Below, in pieces: positions 22,110 through 63,156 of a stretch of 64,000 nt of DNA. Each line of letters begins with the position of its first letter. Position 1 is the stretch's first letter. The translations under genes and the position numbers were made by a program. The stretch comes from Pomphorhynchus laevis (Eukaryota; Acanthocephala; Palaeacanthocephala; Echinorhynchida; Pomphorhynchidae). The notes under the pieces were generated by a model. It was not told the origin of the DNA. It saw nothing but the letters and a program-made list of their open reading frames with translations, and did no database searches. The DNA lies in the NCBI GenBank assembly GCA_012934845.2, contig WNNJ02000170.1, positions 1 through 64,000 on the forward strand, in the 5' to 3' direction.

Positions 22110-22601
22110 GTGTCTGTCACAATTCTTTTAGCCTCACCATCCGATGTAGCCGGCATCAATATAAGTCGTAGAATTTTTTTACCAAAACGTAATCCGGTCT
22201 CATGCCCTAAAGACCTGCGGCCCATTTCGATTCAAAACTCACTAATCTCCATCTACGAAAAAGCGCTTGCGCGTAGAATTCGCGAGCATTTAAGTAGGCG
22301 TTACTTAATCCTACCGAGGTTTTATGGTTTTCTCAAATGGCGCACGGTCTATATAGCAATAGGTAAAGTGCATCAGTTTTGTCGGGATAACAGTCATCAA
22401 TTCGCTGTGGCTGTTTTCCTTGACTTTTCTGTTGCATTTGACCGCATCTTAATTCCCTTCGTTATCTCCTCTCTCAGGTCCCTCGGGCTGCCTGCAAGAG
22501 TTGTTAACAGGGTGGAGATATTGATGTACTCTAAGCGAATCTTCTATGAAGACGACTCTGATGCGCGTCAGTTCAACCGTATTACGGGTGTGCTCCAATG
22601 A
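22110..22601 (+). pseudogene. LINE ORF2 reverse transcriptase, fingers and palm
   Basis: 163 residues: PKDLRPISIQNSLISIYEKAL (RT block 1-2) and VAVFLDFSVAFDRILIP, where the catalytic Asp of motif A is present (FLDFSVAFD). The frame ends just before motif B. Confidence 0.75.
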
Positions 22602-23329: not shown

Positions 23330-25560
23330 GAATGACTGTTTTCTATTGTTTTTCTTATCTACATGTTTCGTTTTTAATTATTTTTTATCAATTGTTAGTT
23401 ATTAAGAAAACCTTTATTATTATGAATTTCAAGAACACAAATTTTAAGAGCTTAAACACACAGATATCTGATACAAAAAACATGAACGTCAGAGGATCAA
23501 TCAATTATACTTTTCCAGCTATTTATATGAAATAGAAACGACTTATTTCTTTCAAAAACGAAGACAAGGAGAAGCTTCCTCTAATCAAGAAAATGGTTAA
23601 CTTAGTTACCTCAACTTCAGTAATTCCTATTGCTAAAAATCATTATTTTAATAAATTCCTTCGCGCTTTTTTTCAATTATTCTAACAGAGTTATCCTGAA
23701 CTCAGATTGAAATGTCGGTAATTCGTACCGAATCTCATTTGTTAACACTGAAATTGCAAAAGAGTACCTGAATTATTTTAAAGATAAATTTTCAGTCAAA
23801 TGTGGCACTGTTACATTCAAGCTATTCAGGCTTCAATAAAGATTTTCAACATTTTATCTAATCTGAATGAGTCACATCTTTGTGAATTGGAAAAACTTTA
23901 GAATATAACCAACGATCGTTTCATCAAGTGTAAGGTTGACATCCCCTACCAATAGCATTTGAAAACACGCCTGAAGACAATGTAGGTATCCTTGTAAACT
24001 CCGCTTGTAACCCCTTCATGGACTGTAATCCGAAGTTCACATGTAGCAGTGACGACCTCACTTATCCCCACTGTAACCAGTGCCATTGCTGGGGCACCAG
24101 AGATCAAATAGCAATCATTAAAAAACCTGTGGAATATGCTGGTCTGGTGAGGGCAATCATAAAGCGGAAGGTGGTCATGAAAATTCACGATACTCACACT
24201 GCGGTCAGAATCATCCAGTTTGATCACGGAGGTGCTCTAAGTTTACAACATACGCGAAGTGGTACCTTAATCTAAACGGAGTTCCTCGCTTCTATAATAA
24301 AGGTGGAAATAGATTTAATTATGTTATTACGACAGCTCCTAATCTAGGAGAAATCAAAAGTTCATTGATTTGAAAAATAAAAAACGACTTAGATTATGGA
24401 AGGCTTGATCTCCAAGCTTGTGGAAGTTTTTCTGACACATTCATCCACTGCTCAAGTTACTGCTGTCTTGAATAAAAGGTTGTTATCATCAAATGAAACA
24501 GTCGCACTGTTCTATTTGATAGGTGCAGCAGCAGTGACATGATTGTAATACTCCAAGCAAGGTAGGGCAAAGCGGTCCCTCTGTTGAGAATTGAGGATGG
24601 AAGGGCAACCTTCCTTCCCCTGGGCCTAATTAGAGGGTTTCACTTCCCTCTTTAGTGAAATCAACGCATGAAAAGTAGTCCCGAACTTTTACACTGAACC
24701 TCATTCAGTGGAACACGGTAGATGCTTCTACCCTAAGCCTTCTATATGGTCGAGATGCCGATGTTATAGTCCTTCAGGAGACTAGATCTAACCGGTCCCC
24801 CAGCATATTACTCGATATTTACCAAAGCATATAACAACCCACTTCACCCCGTATATCACCCATCCTCACTCCTCTTCTTCTCTAGATCTTCTAACCTTAG
24901 TTAAGAGTAACTCAAGATTTTCCCTCGTTTATAGTAATTTTCTGAAGATGATAGCAGTAGTTTGCGAAATATTAAAAACAATTTATTCTTTCCTTTGATC
25001 CAGCTCCGATAATTATTTATTTTTCATCTTACTGAGCTATTCTTATCTTGTTTTGTCTTGTTTAGCAATAACACTCTGTAATAACTGTAAACGTTTCAGC
25101 ATAGCCAATGTCTATATTCGGTCGAGAAAGATTCACAAAAACCGTACCTCCTGGATCGTATATTGGGTAGCAGTTATGGCATGCTACTTAGTGACTTTAA
25201 CGACATAACTGGTCGTTGGATTAAAGCAGCACTTCGCAGAGCCAGGAACGAATATCCTATTCACAAACCACCGTTCCCCACGTTCCATTGCACAAAAACA
25301 AATTATCTTCTCGACATACTACTGCTACATGAAATATGGCTGTTAAAGCCCTTTTGTATTGAGCAGTCGCGCCAACAGCTGTCCACTTCGCACGACCGAC
25401 TGTGTTGGCGGTTAGAGAATGATACGTTGCTAAGAAGGATGTTCCACTTTGATTCAATCAGATTGGCCTTCTTGCAGGCAGCGACCGAATCTTCCATGTT
25501 ATAGAAAATACGAGTCTGACCCTATTTAATTCTCCGTCCGATTTTGTATGAAGACTTTTG
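23330..25560 (+). mobile_element. APE-type LINE, copy 2
   Basis: Parallel to copy 1: knuckle remnant YPHCNQCHCWG near 24055, ORF2 start near 24690, endonuclease 25163-25504 (DFNDITGRWIKAALRRARNEY against DFNDRTGRWINAALLTARNDY in copy 1). No RT remains. Interrupted by a 100 bp ribozyme-bearing insert at 24930-25032. Confidence 0.75.
24930..25032 (+). mobile_element. Small insert carrying a hammerhead-variant motif
   Basis: Absent from the matching place in LINE copy 1 (near 21090). It reads CTGAAGA, T, GATAGC, loop, GTTTGC, GAAATAT, and ends in TTTGATCCAGCTCCGATAATT, the tail shared with 26679-26765 and with the 37.9-38.1 kb foldback. Stem II is imperfect. Confidence 0.65.
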
Positions 25561-26470: not shown

Positions 26471-26678
26471 AAAGTGAATACCTTCAGTGGAGGTCTGTTC
26501 AATAGTAAATTTTAATGGACTAGCATTGCTTAGCTTATAAGTCAATTATTCTAATTTATCTCTGCTACCCTTCTAAATGAGGAATATATAATCCACATAT
26601 TATACGTACATACATGGTCGTGTAGAGTTATTATCGCTTTATAATAATAAAGATCAAAAATTGTAAAATGTAATTTTG

Positions 26679-26712
26679 CTGAAGATGCTAACAGTATAGT
26701 TAGCGAAATATC
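26679..26712 (+). ncRNA. Hammerhead-variant ribozyme motif
   Basis: CTGAAGA, T, GCTAAC, loop AGTATA, GTTAGC, GAAATAT. Stem II is a perfect 6 bp helix, the core words are intact, and ATAT after GAA is self-complementary. Followed by the TTTTGATCCAGCTCCATTAA tail. One of the best-preserved copies in the window. Confidence 0.65.
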
Positions 26713-26859
26713 AAAAATAATTTCCCATTTATTTTGATCCAGCTCCATTAATTATTTATCAATAAAATGGCCCATTATCAAATATTTAAAATTATTAAAG
26801 TATTATTATAAATAAATTTAAACTATCAAATGAAAAGTGTTACGGATATACAATAATAT

Positions 26860-35211: not shown

Positions 35212-35648
35212 GCAAAAAATTCGATTGAGTGAGGTGAGGTATTCACGATATATTTAAGATAAAAATAATTCGGTAAATTTACAATATTAAATTCAGTTAA
35301 AAATGATTCATTAGCTGGTTTTTTGCAGCTACAATAAAAAAACTACTATCGTACTAATCATGTTGATGATATATTATCTTAGATCAAAGAATAAAATCTA
35401 GTGCACGATGATCAGATAATGGCTATTTTACTAATTATCGAATTTATACTACTCTATATCTCAAGCATGACGTACTATTAAATAATTTCATCGTGTTCTC
35501 GCTTAATTGATTGATTATGTAAGATTCATTAGGGAAAATGGCCTAATTAGCCAAAGGAAATATTTGGCAATTACAATAATTGTTATCGTATACTCGACTC
35601 ATAAAATCAGTTAAATAATCAGTTATAAATTGAACATTTCAGGAACAA

Positions 35649-35799
35649 CCAGCAATAAGTCCAAAATATTAGTTTTTATTAAACGTTTCGCTCTTTTTTA
35701 AACTTAAAATCTTAAGGTTATTAAAACTTATAATGTGCTGACGAAGCTCAATAGGAGCGAAACGTTCAATAAAAACTAATATTTTAGACTTATTGCTGG
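35649..35799. repeat. Foldback with a hammerhead-variant motif
   Basis: Arms 35649-35693 and 35755-35799 are near-perfect inverses (CCAGCAATAAGTC at the outer ends, CGTTTCGCTC inside). In the plus direction (35738-35767) the motif is CTGACGA, A, GCTC, loop AATAG, GAGC, GAAACGTTC. The minus arm lacks the CTGACGA core. About 60 nt lie between the arms. Confidence 0.75.
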
Positions 35800-37860
35800 T
35801 AGTTATTATAAACCAAATATTATCATGAGTCCACAGCGGATCCCAGCCGAGAGCCAAATCAATCGCTATATATATTACAAATATAGAATAAATATTTTGG
35901 CTATGAAGAAGAACATTTAAATATTTAAAGTGCAAACGTTTCGGATCTTTCTGAATTTTAATTCAGTTTACGTTTTTCTATACTAAAACTGTTGCATCAC
36001 ACAAATTTATATTTAATCGATGACATATTTGATCAGGAAGAATTCTAGTTAAAGTTCCTTTACTGTATGATCAATGGTATTTAATGATTAGTCAGTTATT
36101 AGTTGACAGGCCAAATTGTTCATTTATCTTGCGCTGATTCTGATTGGTTATTATCGACTCGACTATTACAATTTGCATCTTGTGTTGGATTCTCCACCAT
36201 GTGAGTCACAGCGCCATCAGCGGTTATTCGTTTCTTTCTTACGTCATTTATACGATTGTTAGCGCGTAGGTTATAAATTGTTCCGGTTTGACCAACATAT
36301 TGAGATTATTTAAACAGCGATGTCAACATATGCAAAAAGTATATTAAATAGATGATCTCTTTAACGGCCGGTTTAACAATCATACCTAACTACCGTCTGG
36401 GACCATCGAATCCTTGTAGAACATTTAGACAAATTAAATATAACAAACGGCTTGCTGAGACAAGAAAATATATATGTTATTATTTACGTTTCACCCGCAA
36501 AGTGTTTCTTCAGAATTTTTGTAATAAGATAATTGTTATTTCAGTTAGGTAAGCTTAAGTTGCAGCTTATAACTTATCTTACTAAGCTTAACTTATATAA
36601 TACTAATATGTTATATATAACTGTCATTATCAGGAAATATACAGAAAATTTAAAAGTAGTGTGTTCAGTTTTTGTTATTTATTTTTTGCACATTTTTTTT
36701 ATATTTTTACTTTGAAAAATCAGTTGTAACACTTAGTTATAATGTTATAGTTCAAATTTTATCGCGTCTTGTAACATTAAATGGTTGCACTCATTTATTT
36801 ATAAATACTTGAAAATATCATTTTTGAATCTTCATTATGATATACCGTATATTATTTATTAATCATTTCATAAAAATTAAATATATCTTTTTATTTTATA
36901 TACAAATATATTATATTATATTTCTGTGTTAGAAAATCTTTAGAATTTTTATTTTTAAATTTATATATATAGTACAGAATACGTTATAAATTAACTGATA
37001 ATACTAAATTAGCTGATCTAACTTTTACAATTGATTTAATTGTTGTAGGGATTCGCAAAATGTTCGTGAAACGACCAACACGATAATTATATCACAACAA
37101 GATATTTGCATAAATTAGTAAAGTTCTACTTTCTGTTTCTGCAGAACATTTGAGCGAAAGAGCTCACCGCTACGACGAAATTTTATAATTTTAGTCATAC
37201 TTTTCTTACGTTTAAATCTAAAGAATTATCTCCGCAATATTTAAATAAGTGATTTACTGAGATTTAAATGTTAATAATAATATCTTATAAAATAAACAAA
37301 TAATCAGTGTAGAGGAATACACGGTTATTATCCATAATTTGATATTTATTAATATGTCTTATATTATAAATGGAAATAACAAAGGACTTAGTATGTTCAC
37401 TTTCAAAGCACCGATATCCTGCTTGACCTGGTCAGTTATTGACTAATAACACGTTAAATGAGCCGTTGACAATAATTTGTCGCAATGATGTGCTTCGTAT
37501 GTTACTCAACGCAGACTGCATATGCTTTGAGTCATTTGATCAGATAATTCGCATATGATCGCCAAAATAACTTGACTTTATAATTTATTTTAATAAATTC
37601 TCAGTTATCCGATTTGATTAGTAAGTTTGACAGCGAGAAGATTAGAAAGAAATCTAAAAGAATGATTCAACACGGTAATCCCTCTATAGGAGTTTAGCTT
37701 ATCACCTAGACCATTATCTTTATAAAGAAATCATTAATAAAAAGAATTAATAAATCGATAAAATAGTATTATAATAGCAAAATTTACAAATGGCTTAGCA
37801 AAAAATTGCATTAGTTTTATTTTTTGTATTTTAAATAGTTGATAATATGATCCATATTGA
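35800..37860. other. Intergenic AT-rich stretch
   Basis: No supported gene. On minus at about 35931-35985 there is another GATCCGAAACGTTTGC remnant with CTGAATT, a decayed PLE-type ribozyme end. Near 36960-37020 there are faint traces of a family A tail. Confidence 0.5.
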
Positions 37861-37864
37861 TAAA

Positions 37865-38124
37865 TAATTATTGGAGCTGGATCAAAGAAAAGAAAAAAAA
37901 TTATTATTTTTTGATATTTCGCTAACTATACTGTTAGAAAAATTCACCTAATTTTCCGAAGTTGCTAACAGAATAGTATATAACAGGAGTTGCTAACAGA
38001 ATAGCTAACATAATATTACAGAAAGTTGCTTTTCTGTAATTTTCTGAAGATGCAAACAGAGAAGTTAGCGAAATATCAATAAAAATAATTTTCTCTTTTC
38101 TTTGATCCCCAGCTCCAATAATTA
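37865..38124. repeat. Foldback with two hammerhead-variant ends
   Basis: Outer ends TTATTGGAGCTGGATCAAAG and CTTTGATCCCCAGCTCCAAT are inverse. The plus motif (38044-38076) is CTGAAGA, T, GCAAAC, loop, GTTAGC, GAAATAT with one mismatch in stem II. The minus motif (37913-37944) keeps GTTAGCGAAATAT but has lost the CTGAAGA core. The middle holds two copies of GTTGCTAACAGAATAG. Confidence 0.7.
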
Positions 38125-38129
38125 TTTTT

Positions 38130-39008
38130 GTGGGCTTTGAATTTGATGAAGATATTTTATAGCACATATTTATAATTCCGGCATGTAATTAGGCACATGT
38201 TGTATGTGATCTAGGAAGCGACGTCGTGACTCGAGAGGACAGTGATTCCACACGAAGACTTATAATCTTCTATTAAACAAATGTTGCATTTTATTTATTA
38301 GCAAATATATAATCCATAGATTTCGGATTCTTATTAGTTTTTTAAAACTGTGCAAACATGTTACATTGTATCAATTTACTAATTAAGCATTTAAAATAAA
38401 AGTTTAAGCTTAACATGTAACTTTATTTTAAAATGTATTATCTCCTTTAATATCAGCTAGGGGATTAAAACTTATTATGCAGCTAATAAACTTTAGGGGA
38501 TTTTAGAGACAGAAAAATATATTTTAACCTAACTTTGTATCTTCACACATATAAATTTAGGTTGTAAAGCAATGCTTCTAAATAAGATGAATTATTGTCG
38601 ATTATAACAATTATCTAAATATGCATCATCTGGAAGTTGATCGTTTTGGATAAAACAACTGCTAATCGGATCATATCAATCTAACTATTGAAAGAGTTGC
38701 TTATTTTGATAATTTACTTGTTATTTTATAATATGATTAGAGAATGAATATGTTAATATTTTATCTGATATTATTAGTATACAACGCTCTATTTATGGGT
38801 CCATGTTAGCAGATTTGCTCTTAGCAATAACCGAAAATAGCCTTCGCGGATCACAGAGAAAATAGATTTCCGTATCTTTCTCAGTATATTTTGTATGCAA
38901 GCAAATAAAATAAATTAAACGCGTACGTATAATAATGTATTTATTAAAGGTGTCATTAAACTTTACAAATCTTTCTATAAATGACAAAACATATATCATT
39001 GACTCCAT
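38130..39008. other. Intergenic AT-rich stretch
   Basis: No supported gene or repeat. It is downstream of the RING gene, whose 3' end must lie here. Confidence 0.5.
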
Positions 39009-39467
39009 TTATATATCGATAATTGTATATTCTGATGTAAGATAGTAGTATCTCCAGTTGCACTTGATAATCTTCACTGTAGGCCAAAATTGATTTTGCT
39101 TTGAATTATAAAGCATGAATCGGCAAATATAGTCCATTCGATCTTCGCCCTTAAGGATAAAATCTGAAGGTACCGCATAGTCAAATTTCCTTCTACACAG
39201 TGGACAGGGAATATGAATTGCTAACCCACCTTCTGCCGAGCGATCTACCCAGGTTTCTATACATTTTACACAAAAGTAATGATCACATGAATCAAGTAGC
39301 ATGCACTTTTGGCTTTCAGTTTCAAGAATTGGTAAAAGGCAAACTGAGCAAACATCGTCTATCGTTAGGTTCGTTCTGTGGGAAAATTTTCCTCCTTTGC
39401 GCAAACGGTATCCATGTGAGCCGCGTCTATGTTTGCAACTTTTTGAGAATGGGACTAAAATATACAT
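39009..39467 (-). CDS. Makorin-like RING-finger protein (152 aa)
   Basis: Probable E3 ubiquitin ligase domain. The RING runs CSVC, CDHYFCVKC and IPCPLCRRKF, i.e. C-x2-C...C-x-H-x3-C-x2-C...C-x2-C (C3HC4). After it, YAVPSDFILKGEDRMDYICRF parallels the segment that follows the RING in makorins. The N-terminus has CKHRRG...GGKFSHR, like a CCCH finger that has lost cysteines; no intact CCCH finger is seen. At 152 residues it is much shorter than makorins, so it could be a diverged small gene, one exon of a larger gene, or a retrocopy. Family assignment is inference. Confidence 0.6.
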   Translation of the reverse strand: MYILVPFSKSCKHRRGSHGYRLRKGGKFSHRTNLTIDDVCSVCLLPILETESQKCMLLDSCDHYFCVKCIETWVDRSAEGGLAIHIPCPLCRRKFDYAVPSDFILKGEDRMDYICRFMLYNSKQNQFWPTVKIIKCNWRYYYLTSEYTIIDI

Positions 39468-40700
39468 TTGTATGAATTAGTGAAATAACGATCATCATGA
39501 CTGAATGAGAAAGAAGCAATACGAACAAAGCAAATTAATAGTTGCAAAATAAATCCAAGTTTTAAACAAAATTTCAACGAATAATATTTAATACGCATGT
39601 ATTCAAAAAATATATGATTTCAATACTATTTCCACACATAATATTTAATATATTATATGCGTGATTTTTTGAAACCATATATGATTTAAAATTTGATTTA
39701 TTTCGAAAAGTTAATCTGTACTAGCCTTAGCTAAAACATTGTTTAAACATAAGTTTATTTGGAAATTTGTAAATATAAACAAAAATAAGCAATTAACGTA
39801 AACAGTAATGTAAACACGAAACAATTCACTTCAGGATGAATAGGATAAAATAATAGTCACTAATGTTGCGTTAATTATTATCATTTATGCAATTTTATTA
39901 ACGCACTACTGTCACTGATGGGGAAGTATAAAAAGTATATACAATTCGGGAAGTTGTTGTATTCACTCGCCTGAAATCATTTGCGGATCTTTTAGTTTAT
40001 ATACCGACTACGTCACGTTAAAGACTATTATAGAAGAATTATCACTATACGATGCGCATCGAATTCTTTCGAAATACTATTTCAAAATATATCAGAATAT
40101 TTCTTCCAGATCAAAACGTTGAATTTGAACTGCTGCATGTTGTATTAGATATTTAGTTTGAATGTTAGGATGATGTACAAAGGAAACGAGAGGAATGAAG
40201 AATAAAAAATAATTCATTGTTTAAATTATTCTTATGGGTTAAACGAAGATCACTGTGTCGAATATTGGTATATAACTTCATAAAAATAAGAGATTTTCAA
40301 GATTTATTAATCAAATATGATTAAGGAGATAATTTTATTAACAATATTTAAAAATATTTGTAATTTGTTATTGCGATTTTAGATTGAACAAGCCCAAGAT
40401 GGCAAAACGTCTTAATTTATTTCTGCTTGACGGTTATCGATAAAATTTAGTTATTATGACTGAATCTCTAAAAGATGCTAGGAAATAGTTTTCGCAAAAT
40501 GGCATATTAAAGTCATATTCAACTTTAAAATGACATTTAAGTATTGAAACGCAAATGTAATAGTGAATATATTAAAAACATTCTATGGTACCTTAGAATT
40601 TTCTTTGCTGGGACACGGCCATTAAATTTAACAGAATTAGGTAACACCAGCACGTTTTGTTCCAACTCAATTCCATATATATAGTTATTTATATATACAG
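39468..40700. other. Intergenic AT-rich stretch
   Basis: Upstream of the RING gene on minus. No gene, repeat or RNA motif recognised. Confidence 0.5.
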
Positions 40701-40716
40701 TTATTTATATAAATAT

Positions 40717-40850
40717 ATTTTTGTTAACGTTTCGGTCCCTCTAAGCCTTTTTCAAAATTGTAAGTATTTATTGTAACAAAAACAAGTGCCTTGGTTATAA
40801 TAAATACAATTTTGAAAAAGGCTTAGAGGGACCGAAACGTTAACAAAAAT
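40717..40850. repeat. Foldback with two PLE-type ribozyme-like ends
   Basis: Arms of about 45 bp (40717-40763 and 40806-40850), practically identical inverses, each ending CCGAAACGTTAACAAAAA. The CTGANGA core is degenerate (TTTTGAAAAAGGC), so these are relics or a derived form. Confidence 0.75.
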
Positions 40851-41092
40851 CTGCTGTTATTTTTCCCGAGATTTTTTTTAGAACAAAATATACACTAATT
40901 AACTAGTTTCAAATGAAGAGCATTTTTCTTTATGTATTTGTTTCTGTTATTTATTACTTAATTTGTCTTATTTCTCTAGTTGATATTATTTCTCTTTTTT
41001 CTATATAAGGTTTCCAGTTTTTGGAAGCCTAAGTAGTGGATGAATCATTCATGGAAAAATGCTGAAGCTCTCAGGTGGAAAATAGCTTAATT

Positions 41093-41151
41093 ATATATAT
41101 TGTTATATAACAATATATATCCTGGACCACATTATATAACTGTGGTCCAGG
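41093..41151. repeat. Two adjoining hairpins
   Basis: First, a perfect 28-bp palindrome (41093-41120) centred on TTATATAA. Directly next to it, CCTGGACCACA (41121-41131) pairs with TGTGGTCCAGG (41141-41151) around the loop TTATATAAC. It lies about 60 bp before the apparent 5' part of the LINE at 41210. Confidence 0.85.
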
Positions 41152-41556
41152 AGCCAAAAATGGCTACGATTGATTTTTAATCCATATTTGCTGCTAAATA
41201 ACTGGACTTCGATCATCAGCTCCATCAGTCTAATGTATCACTCCGAGACCCTTCTAACCACCCAGCAGTCATCGTCAGTCGGATGAAGTGGTTAGGATGC
41301 GTTTCGACTGATATTGTAATATATAACCATCAACAACGATTACAGTGCGTAATATTTAATATCCATCAACAACGATTACAAGTGCTTCAACAATTACCAG
41401 TGAGAAATCTCATTCAACAACTCTAAGTGGACACCACATCGACGAATCCAAGAAGGGCATAACAAAGTCCACAAGGCAGACTACGTAGATAAGCAGCAAA
41501 GTAACCCCAGATTCGCGACAAAATCTTCAACCGCCGCTGGATCGTCATACCCATAA

Positions 41557-41978
41557 ATGATAAGTGACCTGCATCCTGCCGAGTCTGCGCCTCCTCAGTC
41601 TGACGCTACCACTCCACTCAACCTGTCCCCTGTCGAGTTGGAATGTCCATTTTGCAAAATGCCTTGCAGGGTCACCAAATTGGAAAATTCCAGGTTTACG
41701 GGCCCCTTCGTACCAGGTGTGAGGGGTCTGGTCGTACACTTTTTGCATTACAACATCAACAAACTGCAAATAACCCAGCTCTTCATGTCGTACTCTCCTT
41801 AGATCAGCTGTCCCATCATCTCCGTAAATCGATTTTGAAAAGAATACCGAAGGGCGTTAGATACCATACAGCTAAGGCATTTATCCGCCTCTTAAATGAT
41901 TGTGCGGATGAGAACAGTCCAACAATCTGGCTTCGGTTGTTCACTTTATCTAGACTCATGCTTACATCAGGTGAATAA
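41557..41978 (+). pseudogene. RLE-LINE N-terminus with a zinc-finger start
   Basis: The 41557 frame has ELECPFCKMPCRVTKLENSRF, the start of a C2H2-type DNA-binding finger. The matching second half (RTRCEGSGRTLFALQHQQTA) is in the other frame that begins at 41643, so a shift lies between. Such fingers guide RLE LINEs to their target. Confidence 0.6.
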
Positions 41979-42230
41979 TCAGGGCGATCCATTACATCTA
42001 TCATCAAGGATATAATTTTGAAATTTGATGATAGCTTCCTTAAGAATACCGTAAAAATCGGACCCCTGTATACCAATGAAAAATAATGCCCATTCGAAGG
42101 CTCCGAAATCAAAAACTTTCTGCACCGAGTTTCTATCAAGCTTGCAGACTGTGATGTTTTTGGGGCTGTAGTCACATCATCTGACTCTTTTGCTGACAAT
42201 ATAGAGAGTTCCTTTCAGTCCCTTAAGGAA

Positions 42231-42764
42231 ATGCACCCTTCACACACCAGAGATAGTCTCATTCCTCAAAACTATTCCCCAGAAAATTCGAGTCGTTCCA
42301 ACTCTCAGATAAGAAGTGCCATATCGAGTTTCGCCAATGGTTCGGGACATGGAATGGATGGACTTAGCCCTCAACACTTGAAAGACATGATGTTCTACAG
42401 CGCTTGTGATGCAATTCCGTCTCTGAAACTCGCTCTTTCTCGTGTAATCGATGGTTTTATTAATGGCAATCTCATGGCGGAAGGAGTTCAGCTTTTCTTT
42501 TCGGCGTCCTTATGTGCACTGAATAAAAAGGATGGCAAGAGTCGCCCAATTGCAATCGGGAGCACACTCCGTCGCATTGCTGCCAAGATACTGTGTATAA
42601 GGATATCACAAAAAGTAGGTGATCACTTTCGTCCATACCAACTAGGGTGTTGTACACCATGCGGAGCAGAAGCGATTGTTCACGCAGTCCGATCATTCAT
42701 AATAAACCGCCAACAGCCCACAGTGGTTCTCAAAATAGACTTTCGAAATACTTTTATACCATAG
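42231..42764 (+). pseudogene. RLE-LINE reverse transcriptase, first part
   Basis: 177 residues: GSGHGMDGLSPQHLKDM, LCALNKKDGKSRPIAIGSTLR, CCTPCGAEAIVHAVRS and VVLKIDFRNTF. The last is motif A (Asp kept, but the usual KNAFN reads RNTFI before a frame break). Confidence 0.75.
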
Positions 42765-42873
42765 ATCGCGGTGTTCTTCTTGAAGCAATAAAAGAACATG
42801 TCCCATAAGCATATTTATATTTTCATTCTGCCTACGGCTCTCAGACACCTCTGGTTTATGAAGATCGAATCAT

Positions 42874-43179
42874 TTGGTAAAAACATGCGTTCAACAGGGT
42901 GATCCCCTTGGTCCAATTGGTTTTGCTCTAGCAGTAAATTCTATTTCGCACTCCCTTCAATCCGCGTGGTATTTGGACTTTAACGCGTGGTATTTGGACG
43001 ACGCAACGCTTGGAGGAGATTCATCTGTTGTGCTGCACGATTTGGAGACGATTTTGTCATCAGTTATCCGAATAGGTATGGAGCTTAATGCAGGCAAATG
43101 TGAGATCATGTTCCTTAATATTAGGGAACATGAAATCGAACAGATGACTACTACCTTTTCATCTGTAGCCCAAACATAA
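42874..43179 (+). pseudogene. RLE-LINE reverse transcriptase, palm part
   Basis: 101 residues. CVQQGDPLGPIGFALAV is motif B. AWYLDDATLGG is motif C with LDD intact; the word FNAWYLDD/YLDFNAWYLD shows a 21-bp duplication. LNAGKCEIMFLN is motif D. Confidence 0.8.
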
Positions 43180-43342
43180 AAGTGATTGGTCGGGAAAATT
43201 TGCAAATCCTTGGAAGCGTTGTCTTTGAAGAGAATTCACCGAAAGATTTGCTCAGAGTGAGGAGCAATTGGTATTAATGTGCACTAGGGTTTGAGAGCTT
43301 CGTGCTCACGAGGCACTTTTCCTTGTCAAAAACTGCCTTTAC

Positions 43343-44482
43343 ATGTTCAGACTGCTTTATAAGTCCCGTACAACTCCTTGCTTCAACATGTACGCGGAAC
43401 TCTATATGCTCGATGATGTACTGAAAAAATATTTATCCCACATCACAAATTGCGCGATAACGAACGATTCTTGGCGTCAAGCTTCATTGCCCGTGCCGTT
43501 CGGTGGTTTGGGGATCCGCAGTTTACCGGACATTGCTCTTCCGACTTTTTTATCGTCTGTAGTGGCAACGAATGACTGCGTCAACATTCTTTTGAATAAC
43601 TCTACACATTGCCCACATTTTGACGCTGGCTACTCAATTTGGTTGACCAAGACGGGTCTCAGTGAGGCACCGACTAATAGCCATAAACAATCCGCTTGGG
43701 ACACTCCCCTCGATAAACGAGCTCATGAATCTTTAATTGAAGGCTCGAAAGGCGAGGCATCTCGTGTGCGAATTATGGCGGTCTCCACAAGTATGTTTGG
43801 TGCTTGGCTAAACATAGTTCCGATTGGTGCCCTGGGAACTTTGCTCGATGACGAGGTTGTGAGATTGAGCATTGCCCTAAGACTAGACCTTCCTACATGT
43901 AATCCACACATATGTCATTGTGGAGCGTCTGTTGACGAGTCAAGACTACACGGATTAGCATGCATAATTTCGAGAGGCAGATTTCTCAGACACGCGGAAA
44001 TAAATTCAGTGATAAGCAGAGTCCTCAACACCGTCAACGCCCCAAACATTCTAGAGCCATCCAATGTATGCAGATCGGACGGTCGACGTCCTGATGGAGT
44101 CACCATTTTCCCTTGGCGTAAAGGGAAATGTTTGATTTGGGACGCTACCTGCGTGGACACCCTCGCAGCCATCAATGTTAGGAACGCAGCCAGAGGAGCG
44201 GGCAAAGAAGCCTCATATGCCGAAGAGCAGAAACGTCTGAAATATGGCGACTTGACCATGTCCCATATATTTTGCCCTTTTGGAGTAGAGACTTATGGAT
44301 CACTGGGCTCTTCCGCTTTGGCTCTTGTTAAGGATATAGGAAAAAGATTGAAGCACGTTACCGGGGATTCACGTGCTACTTCATACCTCCTCCAAAACGT
44401 TAGCATTGCCATCAAACGCGGAAATGCTGTCAGCATTCTGGCGACGGCTTCAAAGGGCAAGAACATGGTAGGCTGGTGGTAG
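43343..44482 (+). CDS. RLE-LINE C-terminus: knuckle and restriction-like endonuclease (379 aa)
   Basis: The thumb region contains PFGGLGIRSLPDIALP. The CCHC knuckle is CHCGASVDESRLHGLAC (Cys191, Cys193, His203, Cys207). The nuclease motif RRPDGVTIFPWRKG then LIWDATCVDT gives Pro250-Asp251 and Asp267. The tail has AEEQKRLKYGDL. The open frame is unbroken to the stop. The nuclease would nick the target for priming; without the upstream frames this copy cannot make a full protein. Confidence 0.8.
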   Translation: MFRLLYKSRTTPCFNMYAELYMLDDVLKKYLSHITNCAITNDSWRQASLPVPFGGLGIRSLPDIALPTFLSSVVATNDCVNILLNNSTHCPHFDAGYSIWLTKTGLSEAPTNSHKQSAWDTPLDKRAHESLIEGSKGEASRVRIMAVSTSMFGAWLNIVPIGALGTLLDDEVVRLSIALRLDLPTCNPHICHCGASVDESRLHGLACIISRGRFLRHAEINSVISRVLNTVNAPNILEPSNVCRSDGRRPDGVTIFPWRKGKCLIWDATCVDTLAAINVRNAARGAGKEASYAEEQKRLKYGDLTMSHIFCPFGVETYGSLGSSALALVKDIGKRLKHVTGDSRATSYLLQNVSIAIKRGNAVSILATASKGKNMVGWW

Positions 44483-44609
44483 CAGCCAGTCTTGCTAAAA
44501 GAATGACATTACTCTACGAAGAAGACAAACGTTCTCCTGTATCTATCTTTTTTATTTTAAATTTATTTGTATTTTAAAATATATATACAATGTCACACAG
44601 GCAACCGAA

Positions 44610-44665
44610 ACGACCAGTGAGTACTTCATTCTACTGATGAGTGTTGTCGGGTACTCATTGATCGT
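44610..44665 (+). ncRNA. Hairpin in the 3' region of the RLE LINE
   Basis: ACGACCAGTGAGTAC (44610-44624) pairs with GTACTCATTGATCGT (44651-44665) over 15 positions with one mismatch and one G-T pair. The loop is 26 nt and includes CTGATGAG. A structured 3' end of this kind is where LINE RTs bind their own RNA. The role is inference. Confidence 0.6.
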
Positions 44666-44814
44666 CTAGAAGTGACATGGTAACTGAAAGTCGTGAATCA
44701 AAGTCCAGTCTAACAAGCAACACCATTTTGTATATATAATTATAATGTGATACTAGTAAGCAATCACATTATATCACGTATATCACATTATATATATCAA
44801 AAACCTCATTAATA

Positions 44815-46135
44815 ATGCATAGGTAACATAAATATAGATAGACTTTTAAATAATTATAATAGTAAAGAAATAATAGGATCAAATTTACGTAAATATATTC
44901 ATAAAATAAGGTATAAGTTGTTACCGCTATTAGGACGAAAAATTTGTAATTATAATAAAGAATTGAAATCAATTTGTAACGATAATATTAGAAACGTTTT
45001 GGAAACAGAATGTAATTGTAAAAGTCTCAATTTTGATAAAAAAAACATCTATGTACCCATAATTTTAATTAATTGAAAATGGTGAATTAAGGGAAATATT
45101 ATCAGAAGAGTATAAACATTGATTAAATAATAACAATAAAAATAAAATTTACAATTCGTTATATAATGACTTCAATGCTTACTTTGGTAAGTGAATTAAT
45201 AACGAAAGCTTAAATATATCTAACATTAAAATTCGGAAAGATTTTATATTTGATGAAATTAAAAGGAAAATAAAAATAACAAACAATTATAAAAGGAAAG
45301 GTCAAATTAATAAAGATATGCATTTAGAACTTCCTAAATTAAAGCATAACTATATAATAACAACTATTGATAAAGCTAGTAATAGCTTTGTCTTCATATG
45401 CAAAAAGCTTTATTATGATATACCGATGAAAGAAGTTAATTATAATGATTTAAATGTAAATCCAGCATATGAACGTAGTGAGTTGAGTTTAGAAACAATT
45501 ATTACAAGTCATTGTTCTATAAAGGATAGAAAGGTTATAAAAATTAAATCAGATAATAAAACTATACCTATATTATATTGGAATCCAAAATTACATAAAA
45601 ATCCAATAAAACCTAGGTTCATATGTAGTGCGTTTAAATGTACATTAAAACCACTTTCTGTCTATATGAATAAAATACTTAAAGTAATTAAAGCACACTT
45701 TAAAAAATATTGCAAGGTAATCGAAATTAATACTGGTATAAAACACTATTTCAGTATTAATTCTACAAAAGAATTTTTAGAACAGACAAAAGGAATAAAT
45801 TTTCAAAATATAAATACATACGATTTTAGTACTCTTTATACAAATCTAGATTTAGCAAATATTAAAGATGCATTAGAAAAATTAATTAACGTTATATTCG
45901 GAAATAGATACATACATATGTTATAACAACTATAATGCCTATCTAATCAAAAATAAACCCATCAAATAAATACATATATATGGATAAAATCGAATTAATA
46001 GAATCCTAGAGTATTTTGATTAATCAAAATTATTAAAAAGTAGGGAAATATATTTTAGACAAATAAAAGATCTTCCAATGGGAGGTAATAGTAGCCCACT
46101 TATAGGTGACATATTTTTAAGATAAACAGAGATGT
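44815..46135 (+). pseudogene. Family A reverse transcriptase, 5' and middle part
   Basis: The open piece 45318-45926 reads NYIITTIDKASNSFVFICKK, LYWNPKLHKNPIKPRFICSA and NTYDFSTLYTNL: the fingers and motif A of an RT type widespread in invertebrate animals that resembles PLE RTs. In another frame at 46070-46120, LPMGGNSSPLIGDIFL is motif B. Upstream to 44815 a further N-terminal stretch (CNCKSLNFDKKNIYVP) is readable through stops. The YIDD part seen at 50.6 kb would come next, but the copy ends here. Confidence 0.7.
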
Positions 46136-46383
46136 CAATATCTGACATTATTTCTATTTTATTTCAACTTTGTTTTTGTAATGTGTTTCTAGATGGACTG
46201 GGGAAATTCTTCGGGAAGAAACGTATCAAAAACGCTTTTCCGGTGTACCGTTGTTTGCAAGGCAAATAGCGATACAATATAAATCGATATGATATGATTA
46301 CGGACGGTAATTCAATATCTAAGTATATATCTCTAAGTAGATGTAATCTTTTAGTACATCTATGCTTATAATTAATCGCAAAG

Positions 46384-46526
46384 TTGAACAAAGCTTATAT
46401 TTCGCACTTTATTCAAAAACGTTTAGGGTTTCCCTTCTTCAGTTTAACAAAATTTTCAAACTGAAGAATGAATAGAAAACCCGAAACGTTTTTCGAATAA
46501 AGTGCAAAATATACGCTTGGTTCAAC
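46384..46526. repeat. Foldback with two hammerhead-variant ends
   Basis: Outer ends GTTGAACAAAGC and GCTTGGTTCAAC are inverse; inside, CGCACTTTATTCAAAAACGTTT mirrors the other side. Plus motif: CTGAAGA (46461) ... CCC, GAAACGTTTTT, with the GGG arm lost. Minus motif: CTGAAGA, A, GGG, AAA, CCC, then TAAACG, so GAAA is mutated. The two halves carry different damage. Confidence 0.7.
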
Positions 46527-46529
46527 GTT

Positions 46530-47664
46530 GTGATTAATTTAAATCACTATAAATGAATCCGACAAGAACAAGGATCTCTCGATTGTTAAACTTAATATTT
46601 TTGACATCGTACATCAGTCATACATAAATAAGTTAATCAAGAAAATACTATATTATAACATTTATAGTAAAAAATACGTTCATAGACATGTTTAAAGAAT
46701 CTAAATTGACTTAAAATATTTTAATGTAAAATATGTTGTATACTTTAGTTATATATTGTTTTTATATTCACAAATTATAAGAGCAAACATATTTTCGTTT
46801 ATTTTAATTGCAAAAGAAATGTTAAGCTTTTTCGTTTGTAATAACCATTTTAATAATGTGAAAATGAAAATTTATTTGATAAATTGAATACATAACAAGC
46901 ACTATTTCCCCAGTAATTGTTGATAGTAAGATAATAGGGGTGATCAAATGACCACCTCAGTTCATATATGAGGAAATCAAATATTTTATAATTTAAAAAT
47001 CGATCAGCAAATTGGTGAAAGTAATTTAAAAGCATATGCGAGTAAGGTGTGTGTTCTGAAATCAGGTGATATTTAAACATGCTTGAACAGTGTATTTTCT
47101 TTGCATACTTCTTAAAACAATCTTCTGCATTTTAATATTTTAAGAGAGGAGGATGTTACTGCTATACCAATAGATACCAATAGATACCAATAGATACAAT
47201 GAATGTAAAATGTTAACTAAGGATATTTAAAAATCCGAGGAGACAAAAAGAACATCTTCGCTTTTAAATTATATTATGAATAATATGTTTAGTGTGTATT
47301 ATCTTCAGCATTCCTCTCTCTCTTTCTATTTTCCATTCTCACTCTAAATGAGAGAATGTGCTGAATGCACAAATTTATATACATTGAATACTTTCATTTT
47401 CAGTAGAACATCGTTCATACTGCGAATGTGTGACACACAATGCATTTACAGCATTATATTTCATTGCACTCTAAAATGCATCAAGGCAGTTCACACAATA
47501 TATATATATGTATCATCGTGCTGACAATTTCAGACGAAAGAGTTGTGTTGGCAGCTACTAAAATTTGAATATTACATACATATCATATAAGTGGCTTTTA
47601 AGATATTTTATTTTTCTCATGAAACAATTTCCATTTCTTTTTTAAAAAATAAATTACGGAGAAA
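46530..47664. promoter_or_regulatory. Upstream region of the PTB gene
   Basis: AT-rich. It has a short tandem array (about 47169-47203, unit TACCAATAGA four times), a CT-rich run at 47315-47345 and a mirrored TCTCAC...GAGAGAATG word. The promoter probably lies here, but I cannot point to a defined element. Confidence 0.4.
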
Positions 47665-56375: not shown

Positions 56376-57073
56376 ACAGGAAAAATCTGATGTATTATAA
56401 TCTGTTTTGTCTTGTCAAGAAATTGTTGTAGTAGATCCACAAACTCGATTACATATTACAGACAAAACAGAGAAAAATGCGTAGATAGGGTTTGATTGCA
56501 AACTTTCAAAGAGATTGTAACTTAAAACTATATAGATGAATTGTACATAGGATAATCATAATTGTATATAATGCGAACCTTTAAAGGAACAAATAAAAAA
56601 CTAGAAAATGCCTTTAATTGCTTAATGTGCTAAAAGATATGTTGATGATTTATGAAACCATACAGCCCATATTCTACGGAAATTTGCGTTTTTGTTCGAT
56701 ATAATTTCATCGCTGAGATTAAGATTCGTATTTTCAAATCATTGCTTAATCGTATATAAAGAGGATATATTGTGTTGACATGAGCGGGATCTGACGCAAA
56801 TACAACGAATACTTTTAGATAAATGAGTCATTTTCTTATTGCTTATTAAAATAAATGAAATAAACTAATATGAACATCGATTACTGTTTTTCTCGATTTA
56901 TATCATTCAACTGTGAACACTGTCAAGAACAGTTGATCAGTTATTATTAGAAATTATTACAATTTTGAATTAATAATTTTGAACAGAAAGTGATTGCGTG
57001 ACGAGTTATTGTGATTAGGCGAGAAAAGCCTTCTCGGCAAATCGTATCTATTAGAATAACAGAATATATTTAT
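56376..57073. other. AT-rich spacer
   Basis: Nothing recognised between the LINE fragment and the inverted-repeat element. Confidence 0.5.
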
Positions 57074-57124
57074 AGTTATTACAGGAACGAAGAAACAGAA
57101 AATATCCTTTATTTGATAAAAATT

Positions 57125-57157
57125 CTATATTTCGATAGCTCCTGCTATCATCATCAG
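57125..57157 (-). ncRNA. Hammerhead-variant ribozyme motif, left end
   Basis: Minus: CTGATGA, T, GATAGC, loop AGGA, GCTATC, GAAATATAG. Stem II is a perfect 6 bp helix with intact core words; ATAT is self-complementary. Confidence 0.65.
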
Positions 57158-57630
57158 GATTACAAAAAAAATGTTTCACAATTTGTTTCCCCCGTGTTTC
57201 CAACATTTATACAAAAATACAAGCATTGATGTGCCCCGCATTTCTACTTAAAAGAAAAAGAAAATACCGAGAAACAAAACAATCATCCACTAAAATTTTA
57301 CACACATTAAAAAAAAACAAAAAGAAAAAAAACAGAATCATAAAACAAAATAAAATTAAAATCATAAAATAAGTGACAAAAAATACGAATTTAATAATAA
57401 AAATAATTTAAAAGTAGAATAATAAATTATAATTTAATCTAAACCAAAACAAAATAATACAATTAGAAAAAACAAACGAATTGAAAAAAATTAAAATAAT
57501 GTAATATTGAAATAATTAATTATAATTTAATTTAAGGTTGTAATCGGATTTATTATTAAGCATTAAATTAGGTTCTTTTTTTTATAAAATACGCTTCTTG
57601 AATAATGCGAGATAACAAGTTACTTTCAAA

Positions 57631-57894
57631 TTATGAAATAGATGCATTTTCAAAATCAACCGAATGATTTAAACTCACAAAATGCTGAGCAACAGCACTA
57701 GAATTGGTCCATTTACGTACAACATTATAATTATGTTGTTTAATACGCTTAACCAAACCTTGACCCGTTTGACCAACATATACCTGTTCACATTCTTTAC
57801 AAGGTATTTCATAAACAATGGCATCTTTGTTAAAATCTGGTTTACGCTTAAAAATGTTGTGAAGTTTAGGTAATTTTCTGTTAAAAATGTGCAC
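57631..57894 (-). pseudogene. PLE GIY-YIG endonuclease (left, minus)
   Basis: 87 residues: AIVYEIPCKECEQVYVGQTGQ, RIKQHNYNVVRKW, SAVAQHFVSLNHSVDF. This is the GIY-YIG core with its basic helix. The RT-linker part continues upstream in another frame. Confidence 0.8.
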
Positions 57895-58013
57895 TTTGTT
57901 AATACAACTATTTTTTATGTTATTGTTAATAAACTTTGAAAATACTGAATTTCACTTGTTACTAATAAAAGGTATTTTTCTATATAATGTTATCTTTTTC
58001 AGGACCAAAAACT

Positions 58014-58555
58014 TTATTTTTTTTTCGCTAAAGATTTAAATTTAGCTTTCCTAATAGCCCAAAGCGGAAAACCACATTTTAGTAAATTATTTGTGATAGC
58101 ATTTTCTCTTTCACAAATTAAGTGATAGTTAGAACAGATAAGCCTGCAACGTAGGTAATGTGACGTAGCAGCGGAAATCAGCCAATTAGTTGGAACGTTT
58201 GAAGTCCAAGAAACAATATCTGGCCCTGTACCAAATTTTGTATAAACACATGTCTGAAGTATAGAAGAATTAACCCGCTTAACCAAGATATCAAGAAAAG
58301 GTATACCCACATGAGATTCAGAAGAAACGCACCATTGAATTCGATAATCCTTAGAATTTAGCGTATGGGTAAGGAAATCCTGTGTAACGCAATTCTGAGC
58401 AACCAAAAAAAACATCGGCAACATAACGAAACCACCTGAAAACTCCATCAATACTATTGACAAAATAATTTTCCCAATTCCTCATGTATAACTCGGACAA
58501 TACAGGATCAAGAGGGTTGCCCATTGTTAATCCATCGATCTGATCCCACATTACA
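58014..58555 (-). pseudogene. PLE reverse transcriptase, motif B to thumb (left, minus)
   Basis: The 58551-58351 frame gives GLTMGNPLDPVLSELYM (motif B) and FRWFRYVADVFF, where YVDD reads YVAD: the first catalytic Asp is Ala. The 58463-58014 frame continues through VGIPFLDILVKR and the thumb. A shift separates the frames. Confidence 0.75.
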
Positions 58556-58635
58556 GATTAAAAAAATTACGTATTTTGGTTGATTCGTATTTTTGAGAAT
58601 CAACCAAAAATAGTTGATATAGTTGAGACGTATTT

Positions 58636-59127
58636 TTGGTTGCTCAGAATTGCGTTACACAGGATTTCCTTACCCATACGCTAAATTCTAAGGATTATCG
58701 AATTCAATGGTGCGTTTCTTCTGAATCTCATGTGGGTATACCTTTTCTTGATATATTGGTTAAGCGGGTTAATTCTTCTATACTTCAGACATGTGTTTAT
58801 ACAAAATTTGGTACAGGGCCAGATATTGTTTCTTGGACTTCAAACGTTCCAACTAATTGGCTGATTTCCGCTGCTACGTCACATTACCTACGTTGCAGGC
58901 TTATCTGTTCTAACTATCACTTAATTTGTGAAAGAGAAAATGCTATCACACATAATTTACTTAAAAGTGGTTTTCCGCTTTGGGCTATTAAGAAAGCTAA
59001 ATTTAAATCTTTAGCGCATAAAAATAAAGTTTTTAGTCCTGAAAAAAGATTACATTATATAGGAAAATACCTTTTGTTAGTAACAAGTGGAATTCAGTTT
59101 ATTTTCAGTTTATTAACAAAAACATAA
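58636..59127 (+). pseudogene. PLE RT thumb (right, plus)
   Basis: 163 residues nearly identical to the left copy (for example VGIPFLDILVKRVNSSILQT). It starts later: homology begins near 58630, so about 230 bp with motifs B and C are missing. Confidence 0.8.
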
Positions 59128-59410
59128 AAAATAGTTGTATTTACCAATTGCCCATTTTTAACAGAAAATGACGTAAACTTCACAACATTTTTAAGCGTAA
59201 ACCAGATTTTAACAAAGATGCCATTGTTTATAAAATACCTTGTAAAGAATGCGAACAGGTATATGTTGGTCAAACGGGTCAAGGTTTTGTTAAGCGTATT
59301 AAACAACATAATTATAATGTTGTACGTAAATGGACAAATTCTAGTGCTGTTGCTCAGCATTTTGTTAGTTTAAATCATTCCGTTGATTTTGAAAATGCAT
59401 CTATTTTATA
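59128..59410 (+). pseudogene. PLE GIY-YIG endonuclease (right, plus), frameshifted
   Basis: The plus strand codes the same IPCKECEQVYVGQTGQG block near 59235-59290, linked to the thumb by a small shift around 59130-59190. Confidence 0.75.
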
Positions 59411-59648
59411 ATTTAAAAGTAACTTGTAATATCGCATTATTCAAGAAGCGTATTTTATTAAAAAAGAACTTAATTTAATGCTTAATAATTGTTATGTTTT
59501 AAACAAGAAACATTGTGAACACACAAAACAGTAGTTTCTTTTCACAAAACCAAAACGTTATATAGCGTTTTAAACAATAGAAATCAAATGGCGTTACATG
59601 AAAGTGTTAGCATGCAAAATACAGTGGCTTACGTATTAAATAGAAGTA

Positions 59649-60134
59649 TTACATTAGGGAATTTTCACAATTTTTGTCAATAAACTTAGAGTTTGTATCG
59701 ATAATAGGTGTGTAATCATCGTCTGTATCAGACTCATTGTGAATTGGAAGGGGTGTTCCGTTCAACTTTCTTAGTTGATCAAAATGCCGCTTCAAAAGTT
59801 TGCCGCTGGTTCGAATCAATACGGTCTTTGGACCTAGTACTTTGGTTACAATACCAAATATCCATTTAGTTGAACTTCCTAGTCTCAAGTCGAGAAACTG
59901 AACATTGTCTCCTTTGAAGAATGAGTAAGTTTTACCATTCGCCACACGCGGTTTATTTGTTTCATCTTGTTGAATGTTGACGTTTTTGATCGGGACAAGA
60001 GTATTAATTTTTGTTCGTATTTGTTTTCCTAATAGCAGTTCAGCTGGGTACAATCCGTTTATACCAGGTGTTCTCCTGTACTGCATAAGGAACTCGTTAA
60101 GTCTGCCTTGTGATGATCCTTCCGTTTTTCGCAT
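59649..60134 (-). pseudogene. Gypsy integrase C-terminal part
   Basis: RLNEFLMQYRRTPGI and YPAELLLGKQIRTKIN, then KGDNVQFLDLRLG and TVLIRTSGKLLKRHFDQLRK, the tail beta module of Gypsy integrases. Confidence 0.8.
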
Positions 60135-60301
60135 TGATTGTTTGAATGTTTGAATACATCATTCTGCCGTTCCATTCGTGGCTGGATGATACGGTGCTCC
60201 CTTTATTAACTCAATACCTCTCGACGCACAAAAACTTTAAAATTCTTGGGAAGTGAAGGATGTTGCATTGTCCGACACAATATATTCAGGATACCCAAAT
60301 C

Positions 60302-60782
60302 TTAAAAATTCGTCGTCCAGAATTCGAATCGTTTGGGCAGTTGATGTATTTGGCACCAAGGATACCGTAAGAGGGCATCAATCATTACTAGCCAATTTCT
60401 ACCTAGAAAATTTATAGTGTGAGCAATATGAATTCTTTCCCAAGGCTTAGATGGAACAATCCATGGATGTACTAGGGCCTTAGCAGGTCTGTTCAGATTT
60501 TCTCGACATTCAGTGCAATCTTTGCTTACTTTCTCAATGTCAAAGTTAATTCCTGACCAAAACACGACAGTTCTTGCTAACGATTTCATCCTATCCATAC
60601 CTTGATGACTTGTGTAGCATATCCAGAACTTTTCGTCGTAAATCTTTCGGTATAACCAATCGATCTCTGTAAAACAAGCAACCATCAGTTTCCTGCAAGT
60701 AATCGTTTAATGATTGATATTGACGCAATTCTCGGTTGTAATTACCTACCTTACATGACCACTTGCCATTTTGTAAACACAA
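60302..60782 (-). pseudogene. Gypsy integrase zinc finger and catalytic start
   Basis: Frame 60782-60591 gives RLVIPKDLRRKVLDMLHKS. Frame 60685-60302 gives HQGMDRMKSLARTVVFW, CTECRENLN and PWERIHIAHTINFLGRNWL, where the first catalytic Asp (HID) reads HIA. Dead. Confidence 0.75.
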
Positions 60783-61128
60783 CAGTACCGTTGAAATAGT
60801 AGGATCGGCTAAGGATAACTACCTAATGTCCTGTTGCATGTGTATGTCACCATGTATAATAGCTATGTATTCAGAATGTCCATCATTTTCATTGCTGTCG
60901 AATCTTATATCGTTGCCTGCAGGTAGTCTGCTTAACGCATCGGCATTGCCATGCTCCTGTGAAGATCGAAATTCGATTTAATAATTGTATTGATTAAGAG
61001 TAATTGCCCTGCGTCCAAGTCGATTAAGGCTCATTTTCGGAAGTGAACTGTTATTGCCAAATATTTGTAGCAAGGGTTTGTGGTCAGTCACTAATATGAA
61101 TTTCTTCCCATACAAGTACTGATGGAAT

Positions 61129-61527: not shown

Positions 61528-61584
61528 TTTAACGCCATCAACTAAATATCCCTTTGATACTCCCTCTAAAGATATTCGATGACC

Positions 61585-62104: not shown

Positions 62105-62251
62105 CTTTTTCCCAAATACCTAATTTTATTCCTCTTTCAATTGCTTTAGAAACTTCCGATTGTAGAGCAATTGGAACCACACGTGGTTTGCAAAAGATGG
62201 GACGACTTTCTTCGCGAAATTTAATATCAACTTCCATCCCTTTGATTCGTC

Positions 62252-63108: not shown

Positions 63109-63156
63109 AATTTTTATCAAATAAAGGATATTTTCTTCTTCGTTCCTGTAATAACT

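Follow-up and report, generated by a model that had tools for sequence, protein, structure and literature searches.

Penelope-like elements (PLEs) can leave inverted pseudo-long terminal repeats (pLTRs) with target duplications, a 31-bp tail on one of the two, palindromes at the junctions and captured foreign DNA, as described in published work (PMC3846280). For the element Poseidon of Anolis carolinensis (PAc), a second study reports that two internal start sites of the reverse transcriptase (RT) delimit the tail and that both DNA strands are cut and extended (PMC11167929). Here we describe short foldback units with PLE-type ends in a 64,000-nucleotide stretch of the genome of the acanthocephalan Pomphorhynchus laevis (NCBI GenBank assembly GCA_012934845.2, contig WNNJ02000170.1, positions 1 to 64,000 of the forward strand; hereafter the window). 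Each unit consists of two pLTR-like ends that face outward. The foldback units are insertions, similar outward pairs occur in hundreds of genomic places, and exactly one of the two ends is tailed in most of the pairs sampled from the main family.

Minimal hammerhead variants of PLEs were reportedly described by Cervera and de la Pena in 2014 and by Lunse et al. in 2017. Thousands of minimal type I variants are dispersed in animal genomes according to a review, which describes their helix III as missing or minimal and states that they may self-cleave as dimers (PMC7761336). Inverted pLTRs, tails, target duplications and dispersed minimal hammerheads are accordingly already published for PLEs.

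The units of P. laevis resemble the Pen families of Adineta vaga in their head-to-head pLTRs, the optional 31-bp tail on one of them, the short target duplications, the junction palindromes and the foreign sequence between the pLTRs (PMC3846280). The A. vaga copies are mostly ORF-bearing (ORF, open reading frame) and low in number, whereas the hairpins observed here consist of the pLTR alone, measure about 140-270 bp and occur at hundreds of sites, and their rule of one tail per pair lends itself to counting. With PAc as studied in vitro the units may share two adjacent internal start sites that define the tail, the cutting and extension of both strands and a minimal hammerhead at the ORF start; no start-site difference between strands is seen for PAc, whereas the genomic pairs here point to coupled use, with one site per side (PMC11167929). 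Animal retrozymes, too, are small and non-autonomous and carry hammerheads, and PLEs are named as the elements that probably mobilise them, but they are described as tandem repeats with classical type I hammerheads, whereas the window units are inverted pairs without a Hammerhead_1 score; published minimal hammerheads are dispersed or tandem in that text, whereas ours occur as inverted pairs, some families having U3-A8 instead of the standard C3-G8 (PMC7761336). The direct tandem hammerhead repeats that characterize retrozymes are absent from the window units, a tandem array at locus L047, described below, being a separate exception. Searches of an open library found neither a foldback class that consists of pLTRs only and occupies hundreds of sites nor a per-insertion count of tails.

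Foldback units in the window and across the genome

The window was searched for inverted repeats with a repeat finder, and genome-wide counts were made over the 249-Mb assembly. The original prediction had claimed five pairs of facing ends in the window. Four of these are clear inverted repeats, whereas the fifth (9104-9179) is only a weak, diverged relic, in which 9090-9127 matches the end of a PLE copy at 57/63 kb (84.6% over 39 nt) and faces a CTGAAGA...ATATC copy. The units and their tails are as follows.

35644-35804: family B foldback unit with outward pLTR ends; left arm 35644-35693 (minus strand), right arm 35730-35804 (plus strand); 35644-35698 and 35750-35804 are 91% complementary by the repeat finder
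35805-35873, plus strand: remainder of the long (tailed) B end, kept among B copies and followed by unrelated flanks
37832-37861, minus strand: tail of the left end of the family C unit (tail score 23 for its identical copy, locus L039 on contig C2856)
37862-38127: family C foldback unit; left arm 37862-37935 (minus strand), centre about 37936-38035, right arm 38036-38127 (plus strand); 37862-37911 and 38078-38127 are 76% complementary by the repeat finder
40717-40850: family D foldback unit; 40717-40768 and 40799-40850 are 96% complementary; TTGAAAA variant of the motif
46363-46546: family E foldback unit; 46363-46419 and 46490-46546 are 84% complementary; a second pair is in locus L109
9090-9180: family A relic pair, resembling the ends of the 57/63-kb PLE

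No ORF of at least 120 amino acids lies between the arms of the window units, which are thus non-autonomous. The tail of the B unit continues to about 35873 and contains ATGAGTCCACAGCGG, a possible ORF start as read by eye. Contig C2856 carries four of the window units at shifted positions with 100% identity and small length differences, and is a duplicate or allelic contig.

The core of family C, GTTAGCGAAATATC, occurs in 3,466 places in the genome, against 0 for the reversed control. When two C cores (10-mers) lie 50-110 nt apart, they face outward in 411 cases and inward in 6, and the reversed-pattern control gave 0 in either orientation. Several other families have the core CGAAACGTT, whose pairs at 40-100 nt are outward in 107 cases (control 0) and inward in 3 (control 2). 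These counts speak strongly against chance inverted repeats and bear out the earlier suspicion that five such pairs in 64 kb were too many for chance. Single occurrences of CGAAACGTT number 4,398, against 1,936 for the reversed control, and among the first 100 of these 4,398 places the neighbours 10-600 bp apart comprise 8 outward, 4 inward and 5 same-strand cases. All genome counts are inflated by duplicate contigs in the assembly, such as C2856, which repeats the window region. Many families produce outward pairs, since 34 outward CGAAACGTT places with their letters listed yielded 17 different combinations of core and stem II, a number of which are close variants of one another (24 of the 68 arms had no readable core). 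The 10-mer outward pattern catches 11 of 32 C pairs sampled as described below; dividing 411 by this share gives a rough guess of about 1,200 C pairs, a figure from a biased sample on which we do not rely.

Insertion sites, unequal ends and the inner boundary

We assembled 32 distinct outward C pairs with less than 150 nt between the arms, drawn from loci similar to that of the window's family C unit, for which 40 of 1,758 candidates were scored, and from 15 further C stretches; exact duplicates were dropped and no near-duplicates were left. Target duplications scoring at least 7 flank 16 of the 32 pairs, where 1.3 would be expected from re-paired flanks, and those scoring at least 10 flank seven, against 0.1 expected. 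Their lengths range from 7 to 17 bp, the longest perfect ones measuring 17 bp, 15 bp and, in three pairs, 12 bp. Insertion boundaries are shared, and the outcome that the original prediction had named as its refutation, random spacing and orientation or a lack of common boundaries, did not occur.

Five paired insertions were also checked for empty sites by searching with their joined flanks, with one positive result (L049). This insertion lies inside a dispersed repeat. Among 40 scored candidates of 988, at least 36 other places, by a count of rows made by eye, match the joined flanks continuously over the junction; in the four paralogues that were fetched, the 15-bp duplicate is present once. 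A second empty site concerns a solo C end in the window, which interrupts a sequence resembling a long interspersed nuclear element (LINE) of which a related window copy lacks the insertion. Empty sites were therefore seen for one paired and one solo insertion, but not for the four other paired insertions. The window features concerned, together with a second solo end, are the following.

24934-25018, plus strand: solo untailed C pLTR, inserted in LINE-like sequence
20966-21265, plus strand: LINE-like relative that lacks the insertion; 21071-21100 is the counterpart of 24905-25037
26670-26788, plus strand: solo tailed C pLTR

The two LINE-like copies are too diverged at the solo site for a target duplication to be read; an RVT_1 domain lies at 22110-22598, downstream of the copy at 20966-21265. 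Loci L015 and L021 were considered as mutual empty sites, but their flanks, although related, are not related at the same point.

The two ends of a unit are not equivalent in their outer limits. In family C the limit is ...AATAATTATTT or, in tailed ends, ...ATCAATAATGGATCATTATCAACTATTTA, about 30 bp farther out. Exactly one end is tailed in 26 of the 32 C pairs, both are in four (L063 and L105 being borderline) and neither is in two. Random pairing of the ends would give 16.2 mixed pairs, and 26 was reached in 116 of 200,000 shuffles. With the tail threshold varied from 10 to 16, the mixed count stays between 24 and 28 of 32 (197 to 1 of 40,000 shuffles); shuffled flanks passed the tail threshold in 42 of 2,000 cases. 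Family B has two stops of like kind, giving long and short ends. By eye, both extensions read as open frames, ATG GAT CAT TAT CAA CTA TTT in C and ATG AGT CCA CAG CGG ATC CCA GCC in B. These long and short ends match the published pLTR and tail of PLEs.

On the inner side, the 62 C arms whose alignments begin at the query start become more conserved at GTAA|TTTTCTG, immediately before the motif. The same GTAA precedes 16 of 20 unpaired arms, although 7 of these 16 are units of one tandem array; of the four unpaired arms without it, three align only in part. L095, L100 and L106 have in common a longer sequence that precedes the boundary point and presumably represents the 3' portion of a longer element. 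Because one inner boundary is common to paired arms and to most of the unpaired ones, the individual arm has the appearance of a short unit that is complete, and the proposal that the units are internally deleted PLE products is not supported. The tandem array just mentioned (L047, 1528-2869 on contig C2905) consists of 7.7 copies of a 175-bp unit, each holding a tailed C pLTR and other sequence, and is possibly a retrozyme- or satellite-like derivative of the C end.

The centres between paired C arms range from 0 to 104 nt and differ among copies, with gaps of zero length in L065, L098 and L099. Of the 23 C pairs with printed centres, only L039 and L041 look alike by eye. The window C unit (of which L039 is the identical copy) has a centre of about 100 nt in common with L041 on contig C1118. 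Other centres are shared within sets of places, namely among C161, C183 and C393 and between C107 and C398, from the outward pairs of CGAAACGTT, and between C136 and C159, from those of family C.

The hammerhead-like motif and PLE affiliation

From both sides of the units the motif CTGANGA, a stem II and GAAA, or a relative of it, reads outward. No Rfam hammerhead was found in the window at the gathering threshold or at E ≤ 10, so that the terms ribozyme and hammerhead variant are used here as statements at the level of the motif. A mechanical motif scan of the window returned eight hits, of which those at 785, 1134, 26679, 35738, 57157 and 63076 look like ends, the last with one core mismatch; only the right arm of the unit at 35644-35804 (35738) represents the five units in this list. 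Both core and stem II were found in the C end at 26679 and the B end at 35738. The C consensus end can form stem II and, following an AUC triplet, six of the seven pairs of stem I, but at most one pair of stem III, and pairing is weak in the B end. Some families, including D in the window, carry TTGANAA in place of CTGANGA, and would be an unusual putative hammerhead variant. Of the ribozyme originally proposed for each end, a ribozyme-like motif stands, whereas catalysis is at most putative, given a stem III of at most 1 bp in the main family and TTGANAA in some others. Two more hammerhead-like ends, with CTGANGA and GAAA intact, lie at 785-870 and 1060-1150 of the window; the end at 1134 has a stem II identical to that of the outward pair at C398:8163.

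Folded as RNA, the window C unit forms one long hairpin (-101.7 kcal/mol, z = -9.4), which in this model would compete with a hammerhead fold. Of two solo units folded alone and compared with shuffles, one folds better (z -2.9) and the other worse (z +1.9). Among 30 arms from outward CGAAACGTT pairs, 19 have readable cores, all distinct, in which positions 3 and 8 are C-G in 6, U-A in 9, U-G in 2, G-G in 1, C-U in 1 and C-A in none. This covariation is significant over the 17 cores with C or U at one position and G or A at the other (Fisher P = 0.002, not corrected for relatedness). In the PLE of Anolis, C3 and G8 are treated as partners, and their double exchange partly restores activity (PMC11167929). 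As C-G at positions 3 and 8 is replaced by U-A jointly between families, families that lack CTGANGA also seem to retain the predicted ribozyme fold.

The arms retain the whole motif and begin upstream of it, so that hammerhead cleavage seems not to define the 5' end of the template, and hammerhead processing as the maker of that end is not supported. This agrees with PAc, for which unprocessed RNA is given as the dominant substrate (PMC11167929).

Elsewhere in the genome, 62 of 65 listed Hammerhead_1 matches exceed the cut-off (73 of 40,608 candidates scored). Full matches on contigs C2913, C2871, C2049, C1351, C2903 and C1798, many of them about 296 bp apart and in both orientations on C2913 and C1798, form retrozyme-like arrays, some with inverted blocks.

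The window also holds two longer PLE-related features.

57068-63162: head-to-head inverted PLE copy with outward motif ends, its right arm interrupted by a gypsy-like pol remnant
45195-45926, plus strand: probable PLE RT fragment, with relatives in the B loci L020/L036, L029/L030 and L035 and in some C loci

That a head-to-head PLE of the same architecture occupies 57-63 kb is confirmed by its inverted arms, which pair 57068-57373 with 62859-63162 (93.9%) and 57552-58409 with 58633-59489 (95.6%); a GIY-YIG domain lies in the right arm at 59172-59408 (23.8 bits against a Pfam cut-off of 22.6). On the minus strand at 59490-62858, inside the right arm, gypsy-like RT, RNase H and integrase domains are present and no LTRs were detected around them; this stretch is either a truncated insertion or sequence captured between the pLTRs. 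The RT fragment at 45195-45926, which by its sequence is probably of PLE type, has no Pfam family over the cut-off, nor does a second RT fragment at 50142. Five of 33 listed relatives of the former carry RVT_1, and one named relative is from P. laevis itself (72% over 19% of the query). PLE fragments were also seen in the C loci L044, L046, L049, L057 and L058.

Formation of the units

We favour, with a probability of about 0.6, the reading that the units are non-autonomous, pLTR-only PLE insertions, made by an RT supplied in trans through two-ended priming at two start sites followed by head-to-head joining. The template would be a short pLTR RNA that starts just upstream of the hammerhead-like motif (a candidate start of the transcript is GTAATTTT) and runs past it, its 3' part comprising maybe the first codons of the PLE ORF. 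This RNA would be used in trans by the RT/GIY-YIG enzyme of a PLE, which would cut both DNA strands with the stagger that later gives the target duplication. Each DNA 3' end would prime one cDNA, one from the tail site and the other from a site about 30 nt upstream, and the two short cDNAs would run toward each other and join at their 3' ends into an outward inverted pair, either directly or with few to about 100 filler bases. The action in trans, the two-ended priming and the joining step are what we infer from the observed pairs. The general proposal that PLEs repeatedly make inverted, MITE-like units (miniature inverted-repeat transposable elements, MITEs) is supported by the orientation counts, the target duplications and the tail pattern.

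An inverted pair with a central palindrome could also arise by snap-back self-priming, in which one cDNA or antisense copy folds at its 3' end and copies itself, as was proposed from junction palindromes for the head-to-head PLE copies of A. vaga (PMC3846280). Many listed centres are near-palindromic by eye, and the arms of a pair resemble each other somewhat more than randomly chosen arms do: over 21 C pairs they differ by 9.0% substitutions, a value as low as in none of 20,000 re-pairings, against 11.0% between elements. Yet self-copying should give equal tail states, and 26 of the 32 C pairs differ; the gaps of 0 nt (L065, L098 and L099) leave no room for the turn of a hairpin, barring subsequent trimming. 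Loop-II variants, with 11 readable pairs of 35 typed in a second set, agree in 4 of the 11 and differ in 7, and the partner arms at C134:235464 look by eye to be of different type, although later mutation could explain part of this. As proof of self-copying, arm-to-arm identity gave a weak and mixed result, and we consider snap-back unlikely. Spread of the units as such, with a palindromic locus transcribed whole and re-inserted so that pairs are inherited and not made at each insertion, appears less likely still as the general explanation. The centres common to several contigs are what it would produce, but some of these may be duplicate contigs, only L039 and L041 agree among the 23 printed C centres, and one inner boundary serves paired and most unpaired arms. 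The units seem mostly to be made afresh, and some may in addition be copied as such at times.

MITEs and foldback elements are short inverted-repeat units without genes, and short inverted repeats, no coding sequence, target duplications and hundreds of places would all suit MITEs moved by the transposase of a DNA transposon. Such an origin is very improbable here: target duplications that vary from 7 to 17 bp and unequal ends led to its rejection, solo single-end insertions exist, and ends of the same PLE type, with outward motifs, bound the GIY-YIG-bearing PLE at 57-63 kb. Even fainter is the prospect that the units are ordinary microRNA-like hairpins or chance inverted repeats. Two units have microRNA family matches (mir-9261, 51.1 of 86 bits; MIR2934, 41.5 of 100), but such scores are sub-threshold only and microRNA genes were rejected on that account; dispersed insertions with target duplications and empty sites and an orientation bias of 411 to 6 also speak against both ideas. 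Some copies could nevertheless give rise to small RNAs.

Several observations weigh against two-ended priming in trans as the source of the units. The 32-pair sample was chosen by similarity to the window unit and is biased; 16 of its pairs, the window C unit among them, have no defensible target duplication (that of the window unit measures 4 bp and is not convincing), and joined-flank searches found no empty sites for L048, L052, L055 and L057. Shared centres mean that not every pair need have been made afresh. Partner arms resemble each other only slightly more than they resemble arms from other elements: just 8 of 42 C arms have their partner as the closest arm, the same likeness was equalled in 333 of 20,000 re-pairings of five B pairs, and loop-II agreement is no better than in shuffled pairs. 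We saw no intact autonomous PLE whose B or C pLTR and tail run on into an ORF, and the nearness of RT sequence to the units is weak evidence, as PLE fragments occur in C and B loci alike. Both the joining of the cDNAs and the involvement of two DNA ends are read from end products only.

More tentatively, PLE insertion could be two-ended by design, with one cDNA from the tail site and one from the inner site, so that the pLTR-only hairpins would be its minimal product, moved in trans in the manner of short interspersed nuclear elements. The conserved pairing of positions 3 and 8, including the U3-A8 form, suggests that the ribozyme fold might then persist because the enzyme recognizes it as a signal, also in cases in which the RNA is not trimmed by cleavage; we regard this extension as possible, though doubtful.

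Published proposals for PLEs comprise self-priming and target-primed synthesis with internal starts, and countable tail states allow the matter to be approached statistically in every genome that contains PLEs. The units also offer a source for abundant genomic hairpins that might otherwise be annotated as MITEs, foldback repeats or microRNA-like loci. If PLE insertion is indeed two-ended by design, hundreds of genomic hairpins in P. laevis would each record the start-site choice of a single insertion event.

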